Source: Pseudanabaena sp. PCC 6802 (GTDB lineage Bacteria > Cyanobacteriota > Cyanobacteriia > Pseudanabaenales > Pseudanabaenaceae). From it: a DNA stretch of 64,000 nucleotides. The stretch lies in assembly GCF_000332175.1 (NCBI RefSeq), contig NZ_KB235914.1, positions 2,047,368 through 2,111,367 of the forward strand, given 5' to 3'. The notes beneath the pieces were generated by a model. The model saw nothing but the letters and a program-made list of their open reading frames with translations, had not been told where the DNA came from and ran no database searches. Shown here piece by piece: positions 2,996 to 59,872 of this stretch. Numbering within the stretch: the first letter of the stretch is position 1; every line of letters starts with the position of its first letter. The translations under genes and the position numbers were made by a program.

Positions 2996-4027
2996 CTAAA
3001 GACCTGCGATCTCACCATTCCCTTCAATTACTTCGCCAATATGATAAGCAGGAATATCTCGTTGCTCGAACCAAGCTATTGTTCCATCCCGTTGCGATGG
3101 AGCTACGATCGCTACCATCCCAATTCCCATGTTAAAGGTATTGAACATTTCGGCTCGAGCGACATTTCCCTGCTCTGCCAACCAAGTGAAAATCGGCAAG
3201 ACATCCCAACTATTGGGCATTATCTGCACGGATTTACCTTCACCCAAACAGCGAGGCAGGTTTTCAGGAATGCCTCCACCCGTAATGTGGGCCAGGGCAT
3301 GGATATCCAGCCCCGCTCGTATAGCATCCAGAACGGGACGCACGTAGATGCGTGTAGGAGTCAGTAGAACTTCGCCCAAACTTAGATCGGCGGTTGCCGC
3401 AGAGAGATTAGGGCGATCGCTCCAGTTCCAACCCTCATCGGCAACAATCTTGCGGACTAAACTAAATCCGTTGCTATGCACGCCAGAGCTGGCTAACCCG
3501 ATCGCAGCATCGCCAATCTCTACCTGCCTGCCGTTGAGGATGCGATCTTTCTCGACAATGCCAACGCAGAAACCTGCGAGATCGTATTCACCATCATCAT
3601 AGAATCCAGGCATCTCAGCCGTTTCTCCACCAATTAGGGCGCAGCCTGCCATTTCACAGCCGCTAGCAATTCCTTTGACTACTTCAGTTAGTTGGTCGGG
3701 ATTCAGCTTGCCCGTTGCCAGATAATCCAAAAAGAATAAGGGTTCGGCTCCAGATGTTAAAACGTCGTTTACGCACATGGCGACGAGATCGATACCTACC
3801 GTATCGTGGCGATCGCAGATCTGGGCTAGCTTCAGTTTAGTGCCAACGCCATCGGTACCAGATACCAGGACTGGTTGCCGATAACCCGTGGGAAGTTCAA
3901 ATAGACCGCCAAAGCCGCCCAAATTCCCCATAACGCCCGGTCTGCGCGTGCGATCCACCAGAGCGCGAATCTGCTCTACAAATGTCCGACCTGCTTCAAT
4001 ATCAACGCCTGCTTGCCGATAATCCAC
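2996..4027 (-). CDS. purM: Phosphoribosylformylglycinamidine cyclo-ligase (AIR synthetase)
   Basis: A full-length 343-residue AIR synthetase. It converts FGAM and ATP to AIR, the fifth step of purine synthesis, in the cytosol. Recognisable features are the [17 protein letters not shown]-binding segment near residue 55, the [18 protein letters not shown] block, GGETAEMPG near residue 137, and [13 protein letters not shown] in the C-terminal domain. It starts 13 bp after the proC stop and is probably the last gene of a pipY-sepF-proC-purM run, although the wider gaps upstream may hold separate promoters. Confidence 0.97.
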
Positions 4028-5987: not shown

Positions 5988-6641
5988 TCAGTTAAAGACA
6001 GAGTTACCAATCCGAACTATTGTTGCACCAGACTTCACGGCGATCGGGTAGTCGCCTGACATACCCATAGATAAGTGTTGTAAGTTAGGAAATCCTCGAT
6101 CTCTAAGCTTTTGGGCCAACTCGGCTACTTGCATAAACGTGCTGGCAGATGCAACTTCATCTAAGCCTAAAGGCAAGATAGTCATTAGTCCGACTATATT
6201 CAGGTTTTGGCATTCTTTAATTACAGCTAGATCGGACATCAATTCTGCTTCGTACCACCCGGATTTGTGGGGATCTTCTGCCAGTTTTACTTGCAAACAA
6301 ATTTTTGGAGATTTTCCTATTTCTTTGACTAATCGATCCAATTGTTGTGCTAAGCTTACTCGATCTACGGAATGAATCCAATCAAAACACTGAATTGCTG
6401 CTTTGGCTTTATTACTTTGCAAATGACCGATCATGTGCCAAGTAATATCTTTTAAATCTTGTAGTTCCTGTTGTTTTTTTTGAGCTTCCTGTACTTTTGA
6501 TTCGCCGAAATCCCTAATGCCTGCGGCATAGGCTTCGCGCATTGCTGACACAGATGCATACTTACTAACTGCAACTAGCTTGACTCGATCGGGTAAGGTT
6601 TGTGCGATCGCAGCAACCCGCTCGCCAATAGACTTTTCCAT
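5988..6641 (-). CDS. pipY: PLP homeostasis protein, YggS/PipY (COG0325) family
   Basis: A 217-residue single-domain TIM-barrel protein that binds pyridoxal phosphate and has no known catalytic activity. It is thought to buffer PLP and affect amino-acid balance. The PLP lysine is Lys27 in VKLVAVSKYAS, followed by the conserved FGESKVQEAQKKQ segment and the C-terminal LSMGMSGDYPIAVKSGAT signature. In several cyanobacteria pipX precedes this gene, but no pipX-like ORF is visible here. It heads the cluster with sepF, proC and purM. Confidence 0.93.
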   Translation of the reverse strand: MEKSIGERVAAIAQTLPDRVKLVAVSKYASVSAMREAYAAGIRDFGESKVQEAQKKQQELQDLKDITWHMIGHLQSNKAKAAIQCFDWIHSVDRVSLAQQLDRLVKEIGKSPKICLQVKLAEDPHKSGWYEAELMSDLAVIKECQNLNIVGLMTILPLGLDEVASASTFMQVAELAQKLRDRGFPNLQHLSMGMSGDYPIAVKSGATIVRIGNSVFN

Positions 6642-55754: not shown

Positions 55755-56951
55755 GGGAGCATCTCAGTTTTGCAAGGCAAGGTTAAGAGAGCCATTAAGG
55801 TAAGCAGAACGGTGTTTGAGGACTTGTGGCACATTATCACGGTTCCATTGAGCGCCAGAGATTTTGATGCGTCTAGCGATTTGCTTAACAGCAGATTCCA
55901 CTGCGCCAGAACCAATAGAGCAAATCTGCTCGGTTTGGAAATACCAATAATCAGGAATACGATGGCGATGCTTGTGCAGATAAGCAATAAAATTGATGCT
56001 CTGAGGACTAGCTAAGTGATTGAGCTCAGCAATAGCTGCAGTCACATTACCCCGCCACAAAAAAGCTTCGACCCCAGTCAAAAGTTGAGCTGTAGCCTCA
56101 ATTTTATGCAGGTTTTCCACCAAATGGAACCAGTCCAAGATTTCATAGCGACTATCAGGTATAGAGATCTGGGCAATAATATTCCAAATCCCATCATGTC
56201 CATCCCCAATACAGGTAACCATATCTGCTAAAGGCTGTCGATTTACCCAGTCTGTTAAGGCAATGTTATCTTGAAATGTGGCAAATATGGCTTGTCCATG
56301 CAAGTTCACAGCTTTATAGTCCTTCCACTCACTTGGCTGTCCAAGTGGCGTGCGCAGTCTGATTCTGCCTCCATCGACACTTAATTCCTCGACCGACTCT
56401 TCTACCTCTAGGGGGCTAAATTCATGGCGATGCACCAGGCGCTGTTGTGTACTGCGCGATATTTGCACTCCCATCAACATGGCTAAGTCTTTGGCGGCTT
56501 GTTCGTAGGATACATTCGCACTCAAGATCAGGCTACATCTTTCCACATACGGGCTCACCTGGCTATAGGGGGCTACTTTGAGCTTCTGCGCTTGCTTTTG
56601 CGTGAGGTGGAGCTGTCCGATGCTGCTTTGCACTCGCCTGCGGCGTCCTGCTTCTGTGCCCGTAACTGTGCGGATAAAAAACTCCCTATTTCTGGGCTGA
56701 CATGTTCGAGGATTTGCTGCCGCACAGCGATTTCGATCCCTTCCAAGCTGGTTAGTTGTTCCGATGGTGTATTCTGATAAAGGATGGCGGCAATAGCTTG
56801 AACGTGCGCTTGCATTTCTTTTTCCTGCTCTGGAGTCATGGTTGCTCTCCTTGGGGTTGGTTTCTCGTATTCCTATCTTCTGATTTCTTCCCCCTTTTGG
56901 CTACCCATCTATATTAAGCATTATTACTCAGTGCAAAGTTGAGATGCTCCC
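55755..56951 (-). mobile_element. ISKra4-family insertion sequence, 1197 bp
   Basis: The ends are inverted: left GGGAGCATCTCAGTTTTGCA (55755-55774), right TGCAAAGTTGAGATGCTCCC (56932-56951), 18 of 20 matching. An exact 8-bp target duplication, ATGGCTCA, lies at 55747-55754 and 56952-56959. One transposase in two frames. The perfect duplication points to a recent insertion. Confidence 0.93.
55764..56839 (-). CDS. ISKra4-family transposase (two frames joined by -1 frameshift)
   Basis: The first frame (56839 to 56573) starts MTPEQEKEMQAHVQAIAAIL. The second frame (to 55764) holds the catalytic part: VEELSVDGGRIRLRTP, TCIGDGHDGIWN, ILDWFHLVENLHK and IGSGAVESAVKQIARRIKIS, the ISKra4 signatures. 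The frames overlap at minus-strand T-TTT-TTA (56681-56675), a canonical -1 slip heptamer; slipping gives EFFIRTVTGTEAGRRRRVQ, the usual family sequence. Confidence 0.9.
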
Positions 56952-57175
56952 ATGGCTCAGTTGTGTTCGATGTGCCTTTACCAAAGATTCCCAAACTACC
57001 TGCCGCGCCAAAATCCTCTGGTGGTCTAAAAGTAGTAGCGATTTTGAAACCAACTAAGGAATTATTGGCGATGAAATTCCCGATAATTAATGTGAAGATA
57101 TAACACTCGGTGGAAACGATCATGTAGAGAACCTTGCAAGGTAGTTTTTGTCAGAGAACTACCAAACTCAGAAAA

Positions 57176-57820
57176 TTAGCTTTCGCTTGATTCGGGAAGT
57201 TCTGCGATCGCAGGCAGAGATGCAGACTGCAAAGCCTGTAGCTTCAAGTCATCCTTGAGCACCAACACGCAGTCATCGAGTAGCTTTGCCTCTAATTCGT
57301 GCAGAGGAAAGCGATAGTCGAAATCGAGAACAGCACATTTGTAGGTAGTGCCATCGGGCAGAGAGCCAGACTTCTGCACAAACTTTGCTTCCCAGACAAC
57401 TTCACGCGGATCGTAACCAGATACGACGATCTCAGCTACGCGATTGCCAAAATTCGATAGAGAGCCTTTTCGACCCGATGCTTGATTCTTGATCTTCGTA
57501 GCATAGACAAGGTTGGGTTTCAGCACCGATTCATCCAGCGGTACAAAGTAAATCGTTCCGATCTGAATATTGGCATTCTGAATTTCGGCATTTCTATAGG
57601 GATCGTGCTCCATCCCGAACTGGAAAGCCAAAATGTAGAACTCGATGGGATCGTTGCCAAGGGATTTTTCGCCCAACACCCAGGAACCATTTTGAGCGCA
57701 GTTCGCTTGGACAAATACGGGTACTTCAGGGATAAAGACCCCTTCAGGCGTAGGAGTTTTTGCAAAGAAAGGATGCCGCTCTAGCTCGGTTTGAGGTTGG
57801 ACTTTATTCTTGGTTGCCAT
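57176..57820 (-). CDS. Unknown protein of accessory operon
   Basis: A 214-residue soluble protein (FVQANCAQNGSWVLGEKSLG; EFYILAFQFGMEHDP; IGTIYFVPLDESVL). The style resembles uncharacterised plasmid-borne proteins of filamentous cyanobacteria found beside DUF932 genes. Preceded by intercistronic hairpin A (57877-57907). Role unknown. Confidence 0.5.
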   Translation of the reverse strand: MATKNKVQPQTELERHPFFAKTPTPEGVFIPEVPVFVQANCAQNGSWVLGEKSLGNDPIEFYILAFQFGMEHDPYRNAEIQNANIQIGTIYFVPLDESVLKPNLVYATKIKNQASGRKGSLSNFGNRVAEIVVSGYDPREVVWEAKFVQKSGSLPDGTTYKCAVLDFDYRFPLHELEAKLLDDCVLVLKDDLKLQALQSASLPAIAELPESSES

Positions 57821-57876
57821 AGGTTTGTTTCCTTTTCGATGAGTTAAGTTGAGTTAAGTTGAGTTGATTTGTTTTG

Positions 57877-57907
57877 TGCCTACAGCTTTTAACGTCATCA
57901 GTAGGCA
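57877..57907 (-). promoter_or_regulatory. Intercistronic hairpin A with conserved loop
   Basis: TGCCTAC (57877-57883) pairs with GTAGGCA (57901-57907). The 17-nt loop contains CTTTTAACGT on the plus strand, i.e. ACGTTAAAAG in the transcript. It begins 17 nt past the DUF932 stop. No U run follows, so it is not a simple terminator. Hairpins B and C share the loop. Confidence 0.7.
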
Positions 57908-57923
57908 TTGGACGAGAGAGGAG

Positions 57924-58853
57924 TTATAGATGCACAGACACAAGCTGTTGCATAAAGGCATCTTGCTTTTGCTTGCGACTGCCATAGCAGAGACTAGAGA
58001 ATGCAGTCTCAAGACTTCCTCTGACAGGTGAATGCCAGTTGATGTATTCCTTTACGGATTCCAATAGTCCATATGCGGTGCCGTAGGCAGATAGCAGATC
58101 GCTGCCCTTGCCATCTCCCAGAAATAGCTTTAGGCAAGTCTGCACAATTCGGGGTTGTGCTTCTAGTGGTTTATTGGGATCGCCAAAGGCTTTGATTAGA
58201 TGTAGTTCTGCTTCCTGCTTGGTGAGAGCAACATCGGCAAGGCGATTCGATACTTTCTCGTAATCTCTGACAGTTGCAAGAGCATGGGTCAAGATTCCTG
58301 CAATGCGAGACGCTACGCTAGCGCGCCCGCGCGTTTCGCTGTTATATTCAGAAACATGGTTGATGACTTGTTGTGATCGCCTCACGGATCTGGTCATACC
58401 GTTCGTGCAAACAAGGCGATTGAAATACAGATCGATCTGCAATCCTCTCCCGCACTCGTGCGATTCTGCAATCATCAGGTGTGCCTCCGTAATATCGCCA
58501 ACTTTCCTTACATCGATTTCGATGGGTAGTTTGCAGAAAGCGAACAGTTCTTTCCCTCCCTTCAGACAGCCGATGCGATCGATCTGCAAGTCATTTTGTG
58601 TGCAAAAAGTATGAAAAGTTTCGAGAATCTGGTGATTCTGGAAAGGCTTGCGCCATTTACCATAGACGCTTAGCATTTGTTGCGTGTCGCTGCGATAGGC
58701 AGCAAGGTATTCTTCGGTCGAGCAGTCATCAGCGTAGCGAATGGGAGAGAGTTCGACTGTCCAATCAAGTCCAGCCGCTTTGAGCTGGTCGTCAATGGTC
58801 ATACCCGATGCGATCGGCGTTCCTAGGTCGCGATACCATGTTCTCACTGTCAT
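57924..58853 (-). CDS. DUF932 phage/plasmid-like protein
   Basis: A 309-residue protein with DUF932 features: WTVELSPIRYADDCSTEEY, AYRSDTQQMLSVYGKWRKPF (like the nominal 'VVG..Y.p' segment), DLYFNRLVCTNGMTRSVRRS and a C-terminal NWHSPVRGSLETAFSSLCYG. Family members occur on plasmids and phages in many bacteria; their function is not known. Within the gene a cyanobacterial palindrome (GCTACGCTAGC) encodes GRASVAS. Confidence 0.8.
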   Translation of the reverse strand: MTVRTWYRDLGTPIASGMTIDDQLKAAGLDWTVELSPIRYADDCSTEEYLAAYRSDTQQMLSVYGKWRKPFQNHQILETFHTFCTQNDLQIDRIGCLKGGKELFAFCKLPIEIDVRKVGDITEAHLMIAESHECGRGLQIDLYFNRLVCTNGMTRSVRRSQQVINHVSEYNSETRGRASVASRIAGILTHALATVRDYEKVSNRLADVALTKQEAELHLIKAFGDPNKPLEAQPRIVQTCLKLFLGDGKGSDLLSAYGTAYGLLESVKEYINWHSPVRGSLETAFSSLCYGSRKQKQDAFMQQLVSVHL

Positions 58854-58894
58854 AATCTTGTTTCCTGAAATATTGAGGTTGAAATGTTCGGATT

Positions 58895-58923
58895 TGCCAG
58901 TCCTTTAACGTTGTTCACTGGCA
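58895..58923 (-). promoter_or_regulatory. Intercistronic hairpin B with conserved loop
   Basis: TGCCAGT (58895-58901) pairs with ACTGGCA (58917-58923). The 15-nt loop contains CCTTTAACGT, i.e. ACGTTAAAGG in the transcript. It begins 14 nt past the 58937 stop. The stem sequence differs from A and C while the loop is shared. Confidence 0.7.
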
Positions 58924-58936
58924 CAGAACGGAAGAA

Positions 58937-59236
58937 TTACCAGTTGCCCTGCGTAATCTCGGAAGCTAGTCTGTGGCGTTCTTCTTGCTCATCAAGCCAT
59001 AACTCGTATTCTTGCCAGTCTTCTTCAGTAGATTGAGGCTCTGGTAGTGGCAAAGCCTTCGCAAAGTAGCCAGTGTTTCTACCGTCAGACCAATAAGTAT
59101 CGAAATCAACGATGAGGTAATGGGTTTCGGTGCCATCAAAATCATCCTCATAGCAATACTCGTGATAGGGCAGAATAGGAACGCGATCTCGATTACGGGC
59201 TGAGGGAAACTGAGTGCATGGAGAAATGGTTTTCAT
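58937..59236 (-). CDS. Unknown accessory-operon protein
   Basis: A 99-residue acidic protein (YHEYCYEDDFDGTETHYLIV; STEEDWQEYELWLDEQEERH). No family recognised. Flanked by intercistronic hairpins B and C. Confidence 0.5.
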   Translation of the reverse strand: MKTISPCTQFPSARNRDRVPILPYHEYCYEDDFDGTETHYLIVDFDTYWSDGRNTGYFAKALPLPEPQSTEEDWQEYELWLDEQEERHRLASEITQGNW

Positions 59237-59267
59237 CGTGATATCCTATTGAGTGAAATGTTTTGAG

Positions 59268-59306
59268 CCGTCTTGAGTGAGCCTTTTATCGTCTTACTCA
59301 GGACGG
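59268..59306 (-). promoter_or_regulatory. Intercistronic hairpin C with conserved loop
   Basis: CCGTCTTGAGT (59268-59278) pairs with ACTCAGGACGG (59296-59306), 11 bp with one wobble. The 17-nt loop contains CCTTTTATCGT, i.e. ACGATAAAAGG in the transcript. It begins 6 nt past the SWIM gene stop. Confidence 0.7.
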
Positions 59307-59311
59307 TTTTG

Positions 59312-59734
59312 TTATGCCTGGGCAGCGATGTAAGAGCAAAGATCGCTAAAGCCAAGCTGAGCAAGCACAGCGTAGCCATGCTTGCAACATCCCTTACCGA
59401 AAAACTGCACTTGATTCTTGTAGTCATTGCACGCGCACTCGATACCTGTAGGTGTGGGAGTAGCGATGTATTGGGAATCTTTTTTGGGATTGCGTACCAC
59501 ATACCCGCCAACCATAGGAGCGCGAATTACTTGCAAGTCCTGAGCCTCAGACCTGCGGCGATCTACGAAGTGCTGTTTGAAAGCCTTGAAAGAAACCAAT
59601 CTGGGTCGCATACCTTTGACATAAACCCATACGCCAGTCGCCCAAATCTCGAACTTGACAACTGCACTTGCCGCTACGTTAAAAATCCGAGCGATCGCAG
59701 AAGCAGAGTAAAGAATGTTTTGAGAAGTAACCAT
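59312..59734 (-). CDS. SWIM-type zinc-finger protein
   Basis: A 140-residue protein from ATG 59734, which has GGAGG upstream; a TTG at 59782 opens the frame but would overlap the operators. The C-terminus has CACNDYKNQ then FGKGCCKHGYAVLAQLG, a SWIM-like CxC...CxH zinc site. SWIM fingers mediate DNA or protein binding. First gene of the DUF932 operon, under operator region 2. Confidence 0.6.
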   Translation of the reverse strand: MVTSQNILYSASAIARIFNVAASAVVKFEIWATGVWVYVKGMRPRLVSFKAFKQHFVDRRRSEAQDLQVIRAPMVGGYVVRNPKKDSQYIATPTPTGIECACNDYKNQVQFFGKGCCKHGYAVLAQLGFSDLCSYIAAQA

Positions 59735-59779
59735 TTGTGAAGTCCTCCGTGTATTTGTTTCTATACATGTAATTATATG

Positions 59780-59872
59780 CAACTTACTATCAAATTACCA
59801 GTAACTAACTATTGTTAATGCTTATAGAAATGGCTTTTAGGATAAGTTGCTTATATGTAACTTACTGGTAAC
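59780..59872. promoter_or_regulatory. Divergent operator region 2 (AGTAAGTTACAT family)
   Basis: GCAACTTAC (59780-59788), TTACCAGTAA (59796-59805) and ATGTAACTTACTGGTAA (59855-59871) lie between the SWIM and SLOG genes. TTACCAGTAA and TTACTGGTAA (59863-59872) are exact inverses. ATGTAACTTACT is the exact inverse of 55118-55129 in the other divergent region. Confidence 0.6.

Follow-up and report, generated by a model that had tools for sequence, protein, structure and literature searches.

A coremin-like RNA, predicted to be an H-type pseudoknot, in the intercistronic gaps of a Pseudanabaena operon and of many phages

Three structured gaps in a Pseudanabaena operon

The locus lies in a 64,000-nt stretch of Pseudanabaena sp. 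PCC 6802 DNA (NZ_KB235914.1, 2,047,368-2,111,367; GCF_000332175.1), hereafter the window, and consists of a four-gene operon read from the minus strand in the order SWIM-like, 99 aa, DUF932, 214 aa. The SWIM-like gene occupies 59312-59782, its true start most likely lying downstream of 59782, near 59728-59740; its product carries an invariant CxC...CKH and had no Pfam or PHROG match. Behind it, on the same strand, come the 99-aa ORF (58937-59236), the DUF932 gene (57924-58853; PF06067, E = 4e-21; phrog_1221, E = 2e-30) and the 214-aa ORF (57176-57820). With DUF932 as query, no named genome contigs were found, only distant relatives on plasmids. The operon's neighbours in the window are phage-like (KilA-N, a cytosine methylase and a helicase loader/replication initiator), and the operon is present at 100% identity in an IMG/VR contig. 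Downstream of the 214-aa gene, two overlapping minus-strand ORFs (55764-56839) appear to resemble an insertion-sequence transposase.

An earlier note on this DNA had described a stem-loop in each of the three intercistronic gaps. All three were recovered on the minus strand, at 59306-59268 (HP1, beginning 5 nt past the TAA of the SWIM-like gene), 58923-58895 (HP2) and 57907-57877 (HP3). The 7-bp stems given for HP2 and HP3 are correct, whereas the 11 bp attributed to HP1 include one C.A mismatch; the loops, put at 15-17 nt, measure 17, 15 and 17 nt and do contain the common core ACG(U/A)UAAA in all three copies. No U-run stands 3' of any copy, as the note had also observed, so that intrinsic termination was rejected. 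Folding-energy z-scores were strong for HP1 (-4.1) and weak for HP2 (-1.6) and HP3 (-1.4). The exact loop pattern ACGWTAAARG occurs 27 times genome-wide, with only the three window copies inside strong stems; the other occurrences, lying outside such stems, were not accepted as further copies.

The description as hairpins with a conserved unpaired loop did not survive. In each copy the GACG or AACG of the loop is complementary to a CGUC or CGUU located 2-3 nt 5' of the stem (in HP1 this CGUC falls within the outer stem), and the structure is almost certainly an H-type pseudoknot in which this short helix, S1, is combined with S2, the stem of the earlier note. Pseudoknot 1 (59279-59305, minus strand, 3' of the SWIM-like gene) would pair CGUC 59305-59302 with GACG 59293-59290 in S1 and GAGU 59299-59296 with GCUC 59282-59279 in S2, its linker being AUAAAAG. 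Pseudoknot 2, 3' of the 99-aa gene (58895-58930, minus strand, linker UUAAAGG), would join CGUU 58930-58927 to AACG 58912-58909 and UGCCAGU 58923-58917 to ACUGGCA 58901-58895. For pseudoknot 3, 3' of the DUF932 gene (57877-57914, minus strand, linker UUAAAAGCU), the corresponding strands are CGUC 57914-57911 with GACG 57896-57893 and UGCCUAC 57907-57901 with GUAGGCA 57883-57877. A short AT-rich tandem repeat (GAGTTAAGTT, plus strand; 57830-57870) separates pseudoknot 3 from the start codon of the 214-aa gene.

The general layout runs from the 5' strand of S1 (NGNC) through CU, the 5' strand of S2 (GRGYA or longer), 0-4 nt, the 3' strand of S1 (GNCN) and an A-rich linker (UUAAA) to the 3' strand of S2. 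Written as a consensus for sense-oriented copies in the gaps between genes of phage and mobile-element operons, this is stop-(5-7 nt)-NGNC-CU-GRGYA-W-GNCN-UUAAA(C/A)-URCYC. A pseudoknot descriptor applied to the gap starts after each of the window's 271 ORFs that are 60 aa or longer matched exactly three times, at pseudoknots 1-3, and across 2521 stop codons in the fetched loci it gave 45 real matches against 2 in dinucleotide-shuffled gaps.

Paralogues, cyanobacterial relatives and covariation

The same genome holds a second such operon (L044), whose DUF932 is 90% identical, and a third relative (L045). The gap 3' of the SWIM-like gene reads CGUCCUGAGC-AAGACGAAAAAGGCGCUC-GCUC in L044 and CGACCUGUGGCAAGUCGUUAAACUGCC in L045, and the second gap of L044 reads UGUCCGAUUGCAGUGAUGACAUUAAAAGCCGCUGC. 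Where stems differ among the paralogues the changes are compensatory, and each time the conserved portion of the loop (GACG, GUCG or GACA) is complementary to the bases 5' of the stem (CGUC, CGAC or UGUC); the structure is therefore read as a pseudoknot.

Gene order and content differ among the three operons: SWIM-97-183-DUF932 in L044 (2455-4898), SWIM-70-206-230 in L045 (6204-8338) and SWIM-99-DUF932-214 in the window (57176-59743). A conserved divergent 146-aa gene adjoins all of them, and they may be repeated phage-like islands. After DUF932, two paralogues carry GGGGAUGCGUGCAACAUCCCC-type repeats in place of a pseudoknot (L044:4905-4930; L045 about 6170-6195). The last gene of the window operon, encoding 214 aa, is followed by a plain hairpin, GGUAGUU-CUCUGACAAAA-ACUACC (57140-57163, minus strand), and a near-identical one stands 3' of the 183-aa gene of L044 (about 3895-3918). 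Their loop, CU(CU/CC)(G/A)ACAAAA, is kept between the paralogues, and the hairpin is possibly a degenerate relative of the pseudoknot.

Pseudoknot 1 has a competitor in the long hairpin CCGUCcUGAGU/ACUCAaGACGG (HP1; 59268-59306, minus strand; MFE -15.7 kcal/mol, z -4.1). The two are mutually exclusive, since the long stem and S1 compete for the same CGUC strand. A second, distal complement of the S1 5' strand, present in the window at 59268-59306, recurs in L044 (about 2888-2927) and in a further locus (L291, around 1499-1535), as well as in paralogue L045 and phage D6E, and the RNA of such copies could alternate between pseudoknot and long hairpin. A bistable switch as a general feature was rejected: the distal complement occurred in 7 of 44 copies against about 5% in shuffles, leaving the idea unsupported beyond the copies of this genome.

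Of 390 cyanobacterial genomes, 40 contained relatives detected with a profile built from SWIM-like proteins (A1), as did 20 named contigs. Many of these have the element directly 3' of the SWIM stop codon, as in CGCC-CU-GGGCA-U-GGCG-UAAAAC-UGCCC, and others have plain hairpins at the same post-stop place. Five cyanobacterial contigs (L058, L089, L090, L092 and L093) carry a second conserved hairpin, CCCGUGACCGACCACACGGG, 3' of the pseudoknot.

The earlier note had proposed a covariance-model search of cyanobacterial genomes. Our model, R1, was built from nine cyanobacterial copies, all from other genomes, with the S2 pairs alone modelled; its best match in the 64-kb window was window copy 1 (21.3 bits), and it matched in 48 of the 390 genomes, the weakest of these matches possibly arising by chance. 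Copies cluster, with three per operon in genomes G260, G272 and G381 and, in G043, one on each side of a DUF932 gene. In the 44 distinct R1 matches, 90.2% of cells were paired, compared with 26-44% for slid versions, and 42 cells held double-sided changes as against 12.7 in shuffles. Pair 3-14 of S1 was C-G in 26 matches, A-U in 13 and U-A in 4, with one exception. Because R1 does not model S1, this covariation is non-circular support for the pseudoknot helix. The note was right in proposing selection on the RNA, and conservation in homologous operons was found in that the same element stands 3' of SWIM-like and DUF932 genes of other cyanobacteria.

One site behind each gene, in three related operons whose gene order varies, would also be expected of an attC-like single-stranded DNA recombination site that shuffles gene cassettes. 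The GTTRRRY/RYYYAAC core of such sites, however, is not conserved across the copies, and the transcript strand tolerates G.U more than A.C (26 versus 11 cells). On both grounds cassette recombination was set aside as having only a slight chance of being correct.

Distribution in phages and position between genes

Viral sequences were searched with GNCCTGRGYAWGNCNTTAAAMKRCYC, a pattern in which the variable positions of S1 are unconstrained. It was found in at least 120 stretches of IMG/VR, and its reversed form gave no match there. Among the matches listed, which comprise 86 distinct viral sites, the free pair 3-14 was A-U in 38, U-A in 36, C-G in 11 and U-G in one, and pair 1-16 took all four Watson-Crick forms, which together accounted for 61 sites. 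Window copy 1 itself fits the phage pattern with one mismatch, which none of 100 shuffles did.

Named phages were found by BLAST with consensus sequences and then inspected individually. They include phages of Staphylococcus, Streptococcus, Lactobacillus, Mycobacterium, Streptomyces, Roseobacter, cyanobacteria and Vibrio together with crAss-like viruses: SIO1, phiETA, D6E, Nostoc NMeng1, Molivia, the crAss-like cr7_1 and cr124_1, S-EIVl, Labelle, phiEF-1.1, Microcystis Mwe-JY13, a Vibrio breoganii phage, Stenotrophomonas BUCT702, Streptomyces ClubPenguin, Moorella MTATph1, Paracoccus ParMal1, Streptococcus Javan271 and MismyG, an Acutalibacteraceae phage, Latilactobacillus TMW 1.1365 P1 and Lentibacter ICBM2. 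S2 is weakened in Javan271, the Latilactobacillus phage and BUCT702, and the linker is longer in Molivia; a Rhizobium phage, matching only in part, was not counted. One consensus query had no match among 5,426 E. coli genomes. A 27-nt covarying RNA in phages of many bacterial phyla is apparently a general, overlooked part of phage operon design.

Neither the window copies nor those of cyanobacteria and phages matched any of 4227 Rfam models at permissive E-values, in agreement with the earlier note's suggestion of an undescribed element, and we found no paper on it in connection with phages or RNase J in the open-licence literature, where absence is not proof. Being a small H-type pseudoknot whose A-rich linker is invariant, the element might be a riboswitch or a self-cleaving ribozyme, and we take its fold (short S1, A-rich joint, pseudoknot S2) to resemble those of the fluoride and preQ1-I riboswitches and the pistol ribozyme. 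The missing Rfam match makes this highly improbable, however, as do downstream genes without a common pathway, the lack of a recognised catalytic or ligand core and the fact that nothing is conserved 3' of S2 that could form P2 and P3 of pistol.

Between the stop codon and S1 lie 5, 6 or 7 nt in 34 of 43 cyanobacterial loci (11, 17 and 6 loci, respectively), and in the viral sites among the matches listed the spacer likewise peaks at 5-7 nt; the distance from the element to the next start codon is variable. Such spacing to the stops of unrelated genes, with a variable distance to the next start, is what a pseudoknot acting on the terminating ribosome would show, whether it aids termination, prevents readthrough or post-termination scanning, or sets reinitiation on the next gene, and coremin, an RNA-virus element, blocks scanning ribosomes in vitro (PMC10520033). 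We nevertheless consider this unlikely. The stop codons before viral copies are mixed (TAA, TAG and TGA) and no reading frame is kept beyond the stop, the spacers measuring 5, 6 and 7 nt, which led us to reject readthrough; moreover, a close stop codon is missing in about half of the viral sites among the matches listed, several of these coming instead after a tRNA, hairpin or terminator-like sequence.

The genes on either side are diverse. Downstream, the commonest identified product is the head scaffolding protein (of the 78 downstream proteins considered, 6 were added by hand from named phages), and within structural modules a copy often lies directly 5' of scaffold or capsid genes, as in phiETA, D6E, phiEF-1.1, Javan271, MismyG and BUCT702. 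Among identified upstream products, Hsp20 is commonest, followed by minor head, head-maturation and DUF932 (phrog_1221) proteins, the last in 3 of 66 viral sites among the matches listed; because DUF932 adjoins the element in both, the window operon can be tied to the phage operons. Two viral contigs have a copy 12 nt past a tRNA-Lys (L190:3441 and L202:580), and in phages Molivia and cr124_1 (L293 and L309) copies stand directly 5' of tRNA genes.

REP and terminator hairpins protect the upstream cistron from 3'-5' exonucleases, and the element could similarly be a structured block that stabilises the 3' end of the gene before it. Its place directly past stop codons, the plain hairpins found there in other members of the SWIM family and the copies just 5' of tRNA genes, where RNase P would make a 3' end, are all consistent with this role. 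A plain hairpin would do for that purpose, however, and neither the conserved S1, CU and UUAAAC nor the copies that follow terminators or tRNAs and precede scaffold genes are explained by it, so that we regard a 3'-end stabiliser as rather improbable.

The element might alternatively be an operator through which a protein such as the SWIM-like or DUF932 product regulates its own operon, as T4 gene 32 does by means of a pseudoknot. Two or three copies per operon, the three viral sites with DUF932 upstream and the copies on both sides of that gene in G043 fit autoregulation, which we judge very unlikely all the same, as most copies lie in phages beside unrelated genes, without SWIM-like or DUF932 proteins. 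The earlier note's tie to this operon is likewise lost, and since the element occurs beside unrelated genes in many phages, binding by the SWIM-like protein is not a general explanation.

Proposed function and comparison with known RNAs

The reading that we put forward, and hold with roughly even confidence, is a coremin-like roadblock to 5'-3' decay (by RNase J), to ribosomes or to both, by which the cistrons of a message would behave separately. The fold of S1, A-rich linker and S2 would withstand unwinding from its 5' side; a 5'-3' exoribonuclease digesting the upstream cistron would halt at the element, and the downstream cistrons would persist as 5'-protected fragments. RNase J would be the blocked enzyme in cyanobacteria, Firmicutes, Actinobacteria and Alphaproteobacteria, and the same fold may also halt ribosomes as they move on from the upstream stop codon. 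The fixed post-stop spacing would leave upstream translation unhindered with almost no naked RNA 5' of the element. In the window, three copies would divide the SWIM-99-DUF932-214 message so that each cistron has a stability of its own; past tRNA-Lys, 3' processing of the tRNA would generate a new 5' end at the copy.

Several observations point to such a roadblock, namely the resemblance to coremin, the position before scaffold or capsid genes and after tRNAs, the RNase J encoded by the host genome (TIGR00649, 647 bits) and the lack of a match in E. coli. Against it we count the copies in phages of the gammaproteobacteria Vibrio breoganii and Stenotrophomonas, which to our knowledge lack RNase J, the departure from the coremin loop rule, the missing fixed hp2 and the long hairpin that competes at HP1. 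A 5'-3' roadblock alone also fails to explain the tight 5-7 nt spacing, and because this fixed spacing suggests contact with the terminating ribosome, action on that ribosome is kept as the main rival. Among the functions named in the earlier note, a role in stability or processing is still the class with the best support.

To the broader proposition, that one coremin-type pseudoknot, carried by prophage-like elements and by dsDNA phages with hosts in many bacterial phyla, blocks RNase J, ribosomes or both and so partitions polycistronic mRNA, we give somewhat less than even credence. If true, phages would share, by convergence or descent, the device with which plant and fungal RNA viruses counter Xrn1, and coremin would be a minimal version of the element, its loop G..A pairing with the spacer U..C. 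Should 5'-3' decay be blocked, the element would be the bacterial-virus counterpart of xrRNAs, would explain how scaffold and capsid cistrons can be expressed apart from their operon and would provide the coremin problem with a minimal structure. It would also be a compact part for tuning operons.

Two classes of known RNA occupy comparable positions. With REP and intrinsic-terminator hairpins the element has in common that it is a structured intercistronic RNA past a stop codon; it differs in its predicted pseudoknot, covarying S1, fixed linker and absent U-run. Frameshift and readthrough pseudoknots, which lie about 5-8 nt from the decoding site, have the same H-type topology and a similar spacer, but the element follows the ordinary terminal stops of many genes and the frame is not conserved.

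The closest comparison is with coremin (GUCCGAAGACGUUAAACUAC), which consists of a 4-bp hairpin with the loop YGAD or YGNNAD, a spacer of 8-10 nt and a second hairpin (PMC10520033). Coremin, known from BNYVV RNA3, cucumoviruses and related RNA viruses (PMC10520033, PMC5869530), stalls Xrn1, a 5'-3' exonuclease, and hinders scanning by ribosomes in vitro; as of the same study it had no solved structure (PMC10520033). The searches in that study covered RNA viruses, and neither phages nor RNase J is mentioned in it (PMC10520033); within the open-licence literature, where absence is again not proof, we found no paper joining coremin with either. Both RNAs have a 4-bp first stem with GUC/GAC, a loop starting with C and ending in A-W and then, in many copies of the element, (G)UUAAACU(A/G)C, and both are intergenic or in a 3' UTR. 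The G-N-C core of coremin's hp1 is present in S1 (NGNC/GNCN), where the inner pairs are near-invariant and position 3 covaries. The 8-nt loop of the element lies within the tested coremin range, lengths of 4 and 6-8 nt having worked (PMC10520033). Individual copies can be set beside coremin directly: a typical phage copy reads CGUCCUGAGCAUGACGUUAAACUACUC, the phage site GUCC-UGAGCAU-GACGUUAAACUACUC resembles GUCCGAAGACGUUAAACUAC, and the loop of window copy 1, CUGAGUAA, compares with CGAGUAA, that of a natural Xrn1-resistant coremin (PMC10520033).

The differences are equally specific. The loop of the element, C-U-G-R-G-Y-A-W, departs from YGAD/YGNNAD in having U at position 2 (fixed by the pattern in the viral set, and found in nearly all R1 matches), and a coremin with its G shifted to loop position 3 failed to stop Xrn1 (PMC10520033). 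After S1, many copies have UUAAACU(A/G)C and others, as in the window, the variant AAAAGGC. In place of a separate fixed hp2, the 3' strand of the element pairs with the loop over 4-8 bp (S2), a further hairpin following in some loci only. The carriers of the element are dsDNA phages and bacterial elements. On these features the element is classed as coremin-like rather than as coremin, with U at loop position 2 and S2 replacing hp2. In coremin, the C and U of the spacer GUUAAACUAC are essential, their mutation abolishing stalling (PMC10520033), and the essential G..A of the coremin loop may pair with the U..C of this spacer and so form a minimal S2; the phage element would be its lengthened form.
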